DNA from: Thalassospira sp. MCCC 1A03138 | GTDB lineage: Bacteria > Pseudomonadota > Alphaproteobacteria > Rhodospirillales > Thalassospiraceae | Assembly: GCF_002115785.1 (NCBI RefSeq) | Contig: NZ_JFJY01000006.1 | Span: 248,001 to 312,000 of the forward strand | Length of the DNA: 64,000 nucleotides | Direction: 5' to 3' | Part shown: positions 59,205-62,270 of the stretch, piece by piece | Layout: the number at the start of each line of letters is the position of its first letter | How positions within the stretch are numbered: the first letter of the stretch is position 1 | Made by a program: the position numbers and the translations under genes | Notes under the pieces: generated by a model | What the model was told of the DNA's origin: nothing | Database searches by the model: none | What the model saw: only the letters and a program-made list of their open reading frames with translations

Positions 59205-59220
59205 TTTACGTTAACGTCAA
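59205..59220 (-). promoter_or_regulatory. LiuR-like operator before the thioesterase gene
   Basis: TTTACGTTAACGTCAA, centred on the perfect palindrome ACGTTAACGT (59208-59217). It agrees with the motif known for MerR-family LiuR regulators of branched-chain amino acid and acyl-CoA degradation. TTGACG on the minus strand can also act as a -35 box. A near copy precedes the enoyl-CoA hydratase at 61410. Confidence 0.65.
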
Positions 59221-59293: not shown

Positions 59294-59860
59294 CTACCCG
59301 CCAAGAATTGACGAAAGCTCGATCACCGTTATCCAGATCACGGCCAAAATCACAATGACCGTAATCAGGAAGGATCCGATATTGGGCAACCACTTTTCCA
59401 CTCCGCTCCGCTTCACGCCCCCCTCAGACAATGCAGTCGGCCTGACATCATTTGCATGGACAGGAATTTCTTGTGGATGCCCCGGCAAGGCTTCGGAAAA
59501 CACACCGGGCCGGGTTTGTGGGGGCTTGGAATGCATCGTGTCGTCACCATCTTGGGCAACGGAGCGGTCCCCAAAGGGCGTCAGGATCGAAATGAAATCT
59601 GCAAACGGTTTACCGTCTTCGGATATCGTTTCGGTCGCTGCGATACTGGGATTTGTTTTTTTGGGCTGCCCCCCGCTTTCGCGTGGATCACTGTCGCGGG
59701 CATCCTGATCCGGGTTCGGATCAATCGGGTCCTGCACCCCCGATATATTACCATCTGGCTGGGGATTATCCATGCCCTGCATCTGCGCCCGACGGCGGAT
59801 ACCGGCCGACACCAGACGCACTGGCGCCGCGCGATCAGCCCCTGATATGCGTGCCATCAT
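59294..59860 (-). CDS. C-tail-anchored membrane protein, cassette member 3
   Basis: 188 residues: a polar, Pro/Asp/Ser-rich, probably disordered N-terminal region of about 155 residues (NPDQDARDSDPRESGGQPKK), then one C-terminal membrane segment and the end WLPNIGSFLITVIVILAVIW followed by ITVIELSSILGG. The tail resembles those of the two upstream genes. It would sit in the inner membrane with the bulk in the cytoplasm. Start ATG 59860 overlaps the upstream stop (ATGA). No family recognised. Confidence 0.7.
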   Translation of the reverse strand: MMARISGADRAAPVRLVSAGIRRRAQMQGMDNPQPDGNISGVQDPIDPNPDQDARDSDPRESGGQPKKTNPSIAATETISEDGKPFADFISILTPFGDRSVAQDGDDTMHSKPPQTRPGVFSEALPGHPQEIPVHANDVRPTALSEGGVKRSGVEKWLPNIGSFLITVIVILAVIWITVIELSSILGG

Positions 59861-60141
59861 CGCGATAACAGAACAGCAAGTTCTGAATAGGTCGCGAGGA
59901 TCACACTCGCAATTACGATACTGACAATCAGGGATGCACTGGCGCGCGGTAATTTTTTCCGCAACCAGTCATTCAGATCGAAATTGGAACTGATATCGGA
60001 TGCGGGCCGTCTAAATCTTGGCCTGACCGGACCACGCAGGATAACTGTGGGCTTGTCCACTTCATCGTTGGACGCCCAGCGATACCGGTTTTCCGGAAGG
60101 TAAACCGGGTGGCGGTCTTCCTGACCTTTTACGTCACTTTT
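59857..60141 (-). CDS. C-tail-anchored membrane protein, cassette member 2
   Basis: 94 residues: a charged N-terminal region (MKSDVKGQEDRHPVYLPENRYRW), then KKLPRASASLIVSIVIASVI ending LATYSELAVLLSR. Again one C-terminal membrane segment. ATG 60141 is chosen, though GGAGG is 16 bases away inside a small hairpin (CGGCGG-aggta-CCGCCG); longer starts up to 60279 cannot be excluded. A plausible promoter (GTGACA, 17 bp, TAATTA) lies near 60280-60310. Overlaps the next gene by 4 bp. Confidence 0.62.
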   Translation of the reverse strand, partial: KSDVKGQEDRHPVYLPENRYRWASNDEVDKPTVILRGPVRPRFRRPASDISSNFDLNDWLRKKLPRASASLIVSIVIASVILATYSELAVLLSR

Positions 60142-60403
60142 CATGGCGACTACGGCGGTACCTCCGCCGTCTCCTGCAACAAGGGTTAATGTCACATTCC
60201 AGCAACCCTGCCTTACCCGACATACCTTGCCAGCCAATACAGGATTCCCCCCTCGTCTTGCACCCTCCCCATTAAGCATAATTACAAATCATAAAATCCC
60301 CTGTCACACGCTTCAGCGTGCAACACGGTATAATAGTCCCCACATTTAGGCAGGTTTGAGGCAAAGTTCAGGAATTGATATTCTATTCTGGATTGCTTTT
60401 ACG

Positions 60404-61306
60404 CTATCCGCTGATCAATTTGCCAAGCTCGGTATAAACCAGCACCAGAACATAACCGACAGCAATGGCTGCAACCATATATGCACCCAGCTTTGGCAGG
60501 ACTTTATCAAGCGCCAAAGCATTTCTGCGTTCCGTTGCTTTTTTGTTGACCCGGCGCTGCTTGGCAGCTTTCCGGCCGCCCACGCGTGCCGAATGTGCCG
60601 GCGATACGATGCCGGCATTAAGTCGTCGGGCTTCTTCCTGACTAAGCCAGTTTGCACTGTTATCAGGCAGATCGATATTGCCAGATCCATTGCGCGATGT
60701 GGATTTCAGATCATCTACACGACCGGCAATATCGTTATGCATATCCAGACCGGTTTGCGCCCCATCGCCCAGACTTTCCAGATATTCCTTATACGCACTT
60801 CCTGTCCCGTCATTCCCGCCCCGCAGGTCTTCCTGCGCGGCATTTGCCCGCGCCCTATTGGGTTGGGCCTGATACAGGGCGGCATTTCCGGCAAGGACGT
60901 GACGATTGGGTTTCGGCCTGTCGCCCGGTTTACCGGTACTGCTCAGATCATTTGCGGTAACCGGCTTTATCTTTTTCGGCGCGGCGGGTTTCGGTCCCGC
61001 CATTGCCGTCCCGGAAATATCACGCGCCATATCGGGATCAGGGGCGCTGACATCCGGGTTATCCGGATCTTTTTCCGGTCGGCGGGGCTGAAGGATTTCG
61101 GGAACGTCAAACCCGCGGCTTAACAACCGGGCGCGTGCCTCGGCGCGCTGACGTTCCATCTCCCAGTCTATGGCCTCCTTACGGTCATAGCGTTTCATTT
61201 TCGTCTTGGCGACCGGCGAAACCGGCTGGCGCTTTTTAACGATTTCCTTGGTCGTGACAAAACGACCAGGAGCCCGTTGTGGTTTACGTTTTTCGTCGTC
61301 GGTCAT
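60404..61306 (-). CDS. C-tail-anchored membrane protein, cassette member 1
   Basis: 300 residues. Charged, Lys/Arg/Pro-rich cytoplasmic part with a helical RKEAIDWEMERQRAEARARL segment and a long low-complexity middle (RARANAAQEDLRGGNDG), then basic KKATERRNALALDKVLPKLG before the membrane segment AYMVAAIAVGYVLVLVYTEL and the end GKLISG. I do not recognise a family. The tail matches those of the two downstream genes. ATG 61306 follows TGGGAA closely. It is separated from gene 2 by 262 bp and may be transcribed alone. Confidence 0.68.
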   Translation of the reverse strand: MTDDEKRKPQRAPGRFVTTKEIVKKRQPVSPVAKTKMKRYDRKEAIDWEMERQRAEARARLLSRGFDVPEILQPRRPEKDPDNPDVSAPDPDMARDISGTAMAGPKPAAPKKIKPVTANDLSSTGKPGDRPKPNRHVLAGNAALYQAQPNRARANAAQEDLRGGNDGTGSAYKEYLESLGDGAQTGLDMHNDIAGRVDDLKSTSRNGSGNIDLPDNSANWLSQEEARRLNAGIVSPAHSARVGGRKAAKQRRVNKKATERRNALALDKVLPKLGAYMVAAIAVGYVLVLVYTELGKLISG

Positions 61307-61409: not shown

Positions 61410-61425
61410 TTGACGTAAAAGTAAA
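61410..61425 (+). promoter_or_regulatory. LiuR-like operator before the enoyl-CoA hydratase gene
   Basis: TTGACGTAAAAGTAAA differs in two of 16 bases from the minus-strand reading of the site at 59205-59220. It ends 36 bp before the hydratase start and overlaps a TTGACG -35-like box. Confidence 0.6.
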
Positions 61426-61460: not shown

Positions 61461-62270
61461 ATGACCAGTAACTCGCCCAACAGCCACACAGATGAAACCA
61501 GCCTTGTCCTGCGCAAAGACGAGGGCCCGGTCGCAACCCTGACCCTGAATGCCGCCAAAAGCCGCAATGCCCTTTCCGGGGCGATGATGGCGGCTCTGCA
61601 CACGGCATTGGATCAGATCGCAGGCGATCCTGCCATTCGCTGTGTGATCCTTGCGGCAAACGGTGCGGCTTTTTGTGCCGGTCATGACCTTAAGGAAATG
61701 AACGGCATTTCCACCTGCGACGGCCATGCAGCTCTGTTTTCCCAATGCAGCGCGCTGATGATGCGGATTGTCACCCTGCCCCAACCGGTGATCGCACGCG
61801 TTCATGCCGTGGCGACCGCGGCCGGTTGCCAACTGGTGGCAAGCTGCGATCTTGCCGTTGCCGGAACACTTGCAAAATTTGCCACACCCGGCGTCAATAT
61901 CGGGCTGTTCTGTTCGACCCCGATGGTCGCACTCAGCCGCAATGTATCGCGCAAACATGCCATGCGCATGCTGTTGACCGGTGACCCGATAGACGCCCGG
62001 ACAGCGTGGCAGATGGGGCTGGTTTCCGATGTCGTCGAAGATGACGACCTGATCACCGCGACTGACGACCTTGCCAAACGCATCGCATCACGTTCGGGGA
62101 TGACGGTAAAACTGGGCAAGGAAGCATTTTACCGCCAGCTCGAAATGCCGTTATCCTACGCCTATGATTACGCATCCGGGATTATGACCGACAACATGCA
62201 AAAACACGATGCCCGCGAAGGGATCGGCGCATTCGTTGAAAAACGCCATCCTGAATGGCAGCACGAATAA
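61461..62270 (+). CDS. Enoyl-CoA hydratase/isomerase family protein
   Basis: 269 residues of the crotonase fold. AFCAGHDLKEMNGIS and AVATAAGCQLVASCDLAVAG form the oxyanion hole and acyl-CoA site; the Glu pair of true hydratases is not clearly kept in the second motif, where Cys and Ala appear. ECHDC3-like, so the reaction may be other than hydration. ATG 61461 has GGGAGG six bases upstream. A LiuR-like operator suggests control together with the thioesterase at 58675. Confidence 0.88.
   Translation: MTSNSPNSHTDETSLVLRKDEGPVATLTLNAAKSRNALSGAMMAALHTALDQIAGDPAIRCVILAANGAAFCAGHDLKEMNGISTCDGHAALFSQCSALMMRIVTLPQPVIARVHAVATAAGCQLVASCDLAVAGTLAKFATPGVNIGLFCSTPMVALSRNVSRKHAMRMLLTGDPIDARTAWQMGLVSDVVEDDDLITATDDLAKRIASRSGMTVKLGKEAFYRQLEMPLSYAYDYASGIMTDNMQKHDAREGIGAFVEKRHPEWQHE

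Follow-up and report, generated by a model that had tools for sequence, protein, structure and literature searches.

Three neighbouring genes in a stretch of 64,000 nucleotides from Thalassospira sp. MCCC 1A03138 (the window) encode proteins that end in a similar membrane segment. This raises the question of whether the segments have a common origin, how far the gene set extends among bacteria and what such proteins may do.

Organization and conservation of the locus

The three genes, G1, G2 and G3, are located side by side on the minus strand, and both their adjacency and their coordinates, as claimed in an earlier note on this DNA, were confirmed. G1 (60404-61306, minus strand) encodes a tail-anchored protein of 300 aa which consists, in this order, of an N-terminal module, a body of low predicted confidence that is probably disordered, an LPDN..W motif and the membrane tail. 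G2 (59857-60144, minus strand) encodes a tail-anchored protein of 95 aa that corresponds to a free-standing C-terminal region of G1. G3 (59294-59860, minus strand) encodes a tail-anchored protein of 188 aa with a fast-changing body, for which searches found no relative. The block is situated between a divergently oriented crotonase gene (61461-62270) and a run of genes for a hotdog thioesterase, rplM and rpsI; these names reflect our reading of the sequences. The gene order crotonase-G1-(G2)-(G3)-hotdog was present in all 23 Thalassospira loci examined. Adjacency and conservation in relatives, whose absence would have spoken against the earlier note, were borne out, though G2 and G3 are each missing from part of the genus. 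The proposed translational coupling does not stand out as a clearly conserved trait: the ATGA overlap of G2 and G3 occurs in two of the five aligned G3 loci (the window and L032), about 60 bases separate the two genes in L035, and in L033 and L034 the overlap hinges on the start codon chosen.

The membrane tails are homologous

A hydropathy scan detected in each of the three proteins a single hydrophobic segment, confined to about the last 45 residues, and none earlier, which is the architecture of tail-anchored membrane proteins. The tails comprise residues 262-300 of G1 (60407-60523, minus strand), 61-95 of G2 (59860-59964, minus strand) and 151-188 of G3 (59297-59410, minus strand), and a K/R-rich flank precedes the tail. 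The genome of the window contains a fourth copy at a separate locus, G4 (117 aa; contig C1, L031:4539-4892), with a similar LP..W.SND motif and tail. Copies of G4 away from the G1 locus were found in seven of the 29 genomes of the taxonomic family (this one and six more), in at least five of them near a gene that we read as pyrD. The tails of all four proteins of this genome have the same length from LP to E-L and align without gaps.

The tails were compared with each other and with a background of 256 non-redundant membrane segments of other proteins, from which family members were excluded. The pairs G1-G2, G1-G3 and G2-G3 scored 61, 56 and 51, and the best background segments reached 43 (G1), 38 (G2) and 41 (G3). 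The tails therefore align better than random membrane helices, and the three proteins do carry the same type of tail, as the earlier note had proposed. In a direct comparison, the tails of G3 and G4 scored 30, which does not exceed the background, as 22 and 4 of the 256 segments did as well. Plain pairwise searches within the window were weak (G1 to its own G2, E 0.052; G3 to its own G1 and G2, E 0.77 and 1.1), so that the homology rests on relatives and on profiles. With G1 as query, phmmer found the G2 proteins of relatives at E 5e-5 at best. Profile comparisons gave E 5e-9 for G1-G2, 1.2e-8 for G1-G3 and 2e-7 for G2-G3. A profile built without any G3 row (A4) identified the G3 tail of the window genome with 23.8 bits (E 1.8e-4); no other place in that genome outside the family scored more than 13.2 bits. 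In the four G3 carriers searched, the same profile gave the G3 tail an E of 1.8e-5 to 1.8e-4. These tails ranked above every non-family place scored in 383 genomes outside the genus (up to 13 candidate places per genome), the best of which reached 19.5 bits and has internal stops. Tail scores and profile comparisons together support a duplication of the anchors.

The end pattern EL-x2-[LI]-[LI]-[SG] described for the tails holds in the window and its close relatives but not in the genus as a whole: other G1 tails end in NEFSAILGR, NQFSVILGK or IELYSLF, and other G2 tails in TDVAGILTR. Between G1 of the window and the deep-branching G1 of genome G020 (L049), 14 of 17 tail residues are kept while the whole proteins are 27% identical, a degree of conservation beyond what mere hydrophobic anchoring would be expected to require. 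In G3, mean identity is 0.80 in the tail versus 0.36 in the body (five sequences). The tails of G1, G2 and G3 showed no conserved helix face (p 0.38, 0.12 and 0.49, respectively), and packing of the tails against each other therefore receives no support from periodicity.

G2 is related to the C-terminal region of G1

G2 aligns to the last approximately 90 residues of G1, including the LP[DE]N..W motif (79 columns, profile comparison E 5e-9). The match begins at about residue 210 of G1, so that G2 resembles G1 without its N-terminal two thirds. The view that the three bodies are unrelated has to be given up for G1 and G2, which are related beyond the tail; only for the body of G3 did the searches yield no relative. 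The motif of G2, GQEDRxPVYLPENRxxWASNDEV.KP...RGPVR (60013-60126, minus strand), is conserved with low dN/dS, and residues 1-44 of the protein have a mean identity of 0.79 and a dN/dS of 0.10 among 16 sequences. The G1 copy of the motif (IDLPDNSANWLSQEEARRLNAG; 60611-60676, minus strand) was recognized by profile comparison. Among five close relatives including the window, the first 44 codons of G2 (60013-60144, minus strand) are poor in synonymous changes (pS 0.14 versus 0.41 in the tail); GGTCAGGAAGACC, within the frame, can form a small second hairpin.

The leader of G2 (60145-60186, minus strand) consists of ACCCTTGTTGCAGGAG, a hairpin and then 7 nt to the ATG. In all 16 aligned species, GGAG is followed by a hairpin whose stem pairs completely over 5-7 positions (G-U counted as a pair) and, at a distance of 7-10 nt, by the ATG, and the hairpin shows changes that preserve pairing (CAGCG/CGCTG, CGGCG/CGCCG, CAGCA/TGCTG). 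By folding, the hairpin may bring the ribosome site closer to the start of G2, the spacer between them being looped out. The leader had no match in Rfam, and the folding energy of four stretches of 76-80 nt was not clearly below that of shuffled sequences (z -1.95 to -0.32). Searching the window genome with up to three mismatches yielded no leader site besides that of G2 itself; the reversed pattern, used as a control, likewise had one match in this genome, and chance matches occurred in other genera. A literature search on looped-out ribosome-site spacers found none. Several species have a small upstream frame in the leader (ATG or GTG ACG CTG TGA). This reading of the leader was not retained, since the frame is lacking in the window and in its close relatives, while the hairpin is present in all 16.

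Conserved parts of G1 and selection on the three genes

The N-terminal module of G1 (residues 1-82; 61061-61306, minus strand) includes a predicted helix at residues 42-64 and contains 25 of the 48 invariant columns in an alignment of 16 sequences. Its pattern is A-P-x-R-F, the helix and then GFD[IV]P..L. In five aligned deep-branching G1 proteins and in that of genome G021 the module is discernible with its D[IV]P core gone. The AlphaFold2 model of G1 is poor overall (pTM 0.19). The only ten-residue blocks averaging a pLDDT above 70 are those at 41-70 and 271-300, with 78-80 at residues 41-60 and low confidence between 41-70 and the tail, and a helix is predicted for residues 244-299.

Ratios of dN/dS, obtained from simple counts with synonymous sites saturated in the wider sets, indicate purifying selection in all three genes. 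In a first set of close G1 relatives the ratio was 0.25 overall, 0.13 in the N-terminal module, 0.13 in the tail, 0.33 in the body and 0.53 in the linker that precedes the tail. The corresponding values in a second set of close relatives were 0.16, 0.13, 0.12, 0.17 and 0.12. For G2, all species taken together gave 0.10 for the motif and 0.23 for the tail, and for G3 the tail had 0.18 and the body 0.55 (five sequences). As far as these counts go, the tail is under sequence-specific constraint, which in the second G1 set is not much stronger than in the rest of the protein.

Distribution and nested appearance

G1 is present in all 29 genomes of the taxonomic family, which holds one genus, and is therefore probably useful throughout the genus. 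It was found in none of 383 sampled genomes outside the genus; in a class sample of 385, with at most six candidate places scored per genome, the two matching genomes were both Thalassospira. G2 was found in 23 of the 29 genomes, and a phylum sample of 398 gave four matching genomes, all from the genus. The named loci with a G2 relative belong to Thalassospira in 19 of 20 cases and to a Rhodospirillales MAG in one. The tail pattern of G3 in short loci was detected in six of the 29 genomes, and the identical six gave G3-tail matches. A tree was built from four proteins encoded beside the block, with 21 Thalassospira loci and five outgroups; four G1-only genomes were included and two left out. 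The G3 carriers form a clade with support 99, nested in a clade of the G2 carriers with support 97, and the G1-only genomes lie outside both; which of the two G1-only branches split off first is weakly supported (64).

The organization of the locus outside the genus was analyzed in an order sample, in which 28 of 60 genomes matched the hotdog protein. Of these 28 genomes, 25 are from outside the genus; 20 loci were taken from them, and 15 hold both crotonase and hotdog. In 14 of the 15 the two ORFs lie back to back, their starts either overlapping or separated by no more than about 200 bp, compared to 2,271 bp in the window. One outgroup locus (L163:5200-6160) has a gap of 960 bp between the two starts. 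A palindromic operator-like site (TTTACGTTAACGTCAA; 59205-59220) is located beside the downstream thioesterase gene; it accompanies the hotdog gene in all 21 Thalassospira loci with 0-1 mismatches, and in 11 of the 15 outgroup loci a site with at most two mismatches lies near the crotonase or hotdog start. A weaker second copy (61410-61425), on the side of crotonase and G1, occurs in the window and in L032-L035 only, with 1-3 mismatches. Within the 64-kb window, sites with up to two mismatches occur only at both edges of the block. These sites may resemble those of LiuR/FadR-type regulators of acyl breakdown. We take their presence in the outgroups and at the block edges as a sign that the block occupies a promoter region once shared by the two flanking genes. 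A promoter-like site for G1 overlaps the second copy (61410-61425), such sites being no more frequent than in shuffled sequences.

The best reading of these sequences is a family seen only in Thalassospira, in which G1 appeared first, then G2, then G3, with G4 as an additional dispersed copy. The nested order of appearance follows from the tree; the duplications presumably ran in the same direction.

A possible membrane platform and independent anchors

For the function of the family we favour, with evenly balanced confidence, the following account. G1 would have arisen between the divergent crotonase and hotdog genes, G2 as a version of the C-terminal region of G1, and G3 by placing the same tail under another body. 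Each protein is putatively N-in/C-out in the inner membrane, for which the K/R-rich flank is the basis in the sequence, and would be held there by a membrane helix under strong sequence constraint, with a disordered stalk that reaches into the cytoplasm and displays a short, conserved peptide module. The related tails would pack together into a mixed membrane platform, to which the N-terminal module of G1 and the LPENxxWASNDE motif of G2 would recruit soluble partners. The strongly conserved tail and the shared locus suggest such a dedicated membrane assembly, as the earlier note had also proposed. Since G2 is missing from six of 29 genomes and G3 from 23, any platform must work with G1 alone. 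A further argument against a platform is that in the second close set of G1 proteins constraint on the body comes close to that on the tail (dN/dS 0.17 versus 0.12).

Not far behind this reading is the possibility, itself tentative, that the duplicated tail came as a prefabricated address for the membrane and that each protein serves a cytoplasmic client of its own without a shared complex. The occurrence of G1 without G2 and G3 in six of 29 genomes, the restriction of G3 to six, the different body of G3, the lack of helix-face periodicity and the fourth copy at another locus all point this way. The conservation of the tail residue by residue, beyond hydrophobicity, argues against independent anchors.

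An FtsZ-tail-like hexapeptide in G1

Residues 67-72 of G1 (61091-61108, minus strand) read DVPEIL, and several relatives have DIPAFL at this position. This resembles the C-terminal end of FtsZ of the same genome (DDLLEIPAFLRRQAN / LLEIPAFLRRQAN). The C-terminus of FtsZ is listed as a ClpX degron (PMC8138137). The core [DE][IV]Px[FYI]L, in the variants DIPAFL, DIPPFL, DIPPYL, DVPAYL or DVPEIL, is present in G1 of 23 of 29 genomes including the window and missing in six. The 23 are identical to the carriers of G2; they form one clade, and the agreement may therefore reflect a single event. The loci then scanned yielded 910 ORFs with a length of 150 aa or more (238,947 residues), a redundant set in which not all ORFs are real genes; the pattern D[IV]Px[FYI]L occurred there in 17 G1 proteins and once elsewhere.

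The hexapeptide could mimic the FtsZ tail. G1 would then bind proteins that recognize the FtsZ C-terminal peptide, such as FtsA, ClpX or others, either keep them at the division site or withhold them from it, and thereby act as a membrane-tethered division regulator. We regard this as improbable. In its favour are the resemblance to the FtsZ of the same genome in most members and the rarity of the pattern outside G1. The conserved C-terminal peptide of FtsZ shares the D-[IV]-P-x-[FYI]-L core (PMC4117426), and changes in E. coli FtsZ including D373E, I374V and A376P are described there as likely to weaken MinC binding while keeping the interaction with ZipA and FtsA, since these proteins can replace the wild type; I/V and A/P at like places are variants also present in G1. 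Against mimicry, the hexapeptide comprises six residues noticed post hoc, is absent from six of 29 genomes and, unlike the FtsZ peptide, is located near the N-terminus of a membrane protein; it is embedded there in a longer conserved module, which may have another role. The basic residues that directly follow L378 of FtsZ (RRQ in the FtsZ of this genome) are not kept, MPK, MPKR or QPR following instead, and MinC, one known binder of the FtsZ tail, was not found in the genome of the window.

Relation to described families

The proposal that the proteins belong to no described family was borne out in Pfam, NCBIfam and PHROGs. The window proteins (P0001-P0003) matched no Pfam family up to E 1. 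A Pfam scan of 23 G1 and 25 mixed family members gave scattered matches in one or two members each (best E 0.0081), and the one match in PHROGs was that of G3 (E 0.29). The best match in the Protein Data Bank, ribosomal protein L9 at E 0.024, was taken as chance. Plasmids, searched for G2, and viral contigs, searched with the G2 profile, yielded no credible relative. A protein of about 505-528 aa matched a mixed profile weakly over the motif in seven relatives (E 0.08-0.2) and was dropped as chance; the sequences from two of the relatives read to us as a GntR/aminotransferase-like regulator. No paper pairing Thalassospira with tail-anchored proteins was found, none pairing it with FtsZ had more than three mentions of Thalassospira, and nothing on the family appeared among the papers listed for FtsZ-tail binders or mimics, bacterial tail-anchored proteins and orphan genes.

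ElaB and YqjD of E. coli have paralogues in one genome, as does the Thalassospira family. Like these DUF883 proteins, as described in PMC5525287, the members are small and tail-anchored, and by analogy they might tether ribosomes to the membrane or act in stress. The same gross architecture, a tail anchor with a polar N-terminal part, and the position upstream of rplM-rpsI on the same strand fit this idea. We consider it very unlikely, given that no DUF883 was among the matches up to E 0.1 of the 23 G1 and 25 mixed members, and that the hotdog-rplM neighbourhood is also present in outgroups without G1-G3. The motifs also differ, and the Thalassospira family was found in one genus only. Bacterial tail-anchored membrane proteins in general (PMC6794478) are described as sharing a single C-terminal membrane segment with a short tail beyond; here, in contrast, the tails are conserved in sequence under different bodies. 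That the similarity reflects mere hydrophobic helices, or that the ORFs are not genes, deserves almost no credence: short tails and low-complexity bodies can mislead and pairwise searches within the window are weak, but the tail scores exceed all 256 background segments, dN/dS is below 1 in G1, G2 and G3, and the gene order is conserved in the genus.

The family is thus real and conserved in one genus, with a clear nested history and no description found in the libraries and literature searched. It is well bounded and has grown in nested steps at a place where outgroups have a short shared promoter region. The FtsZ-tail-like peptide offers one directly testable idea for why G1 was kept; should mimicry hold after all, which we doubt, a single lineage would have added its own component to the widespread machinery of FtsZ-based division. 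With its membrane tail reused under changing bodies, the family allows a membrane-anchor module to be recognized as a unit in the birth of genes.
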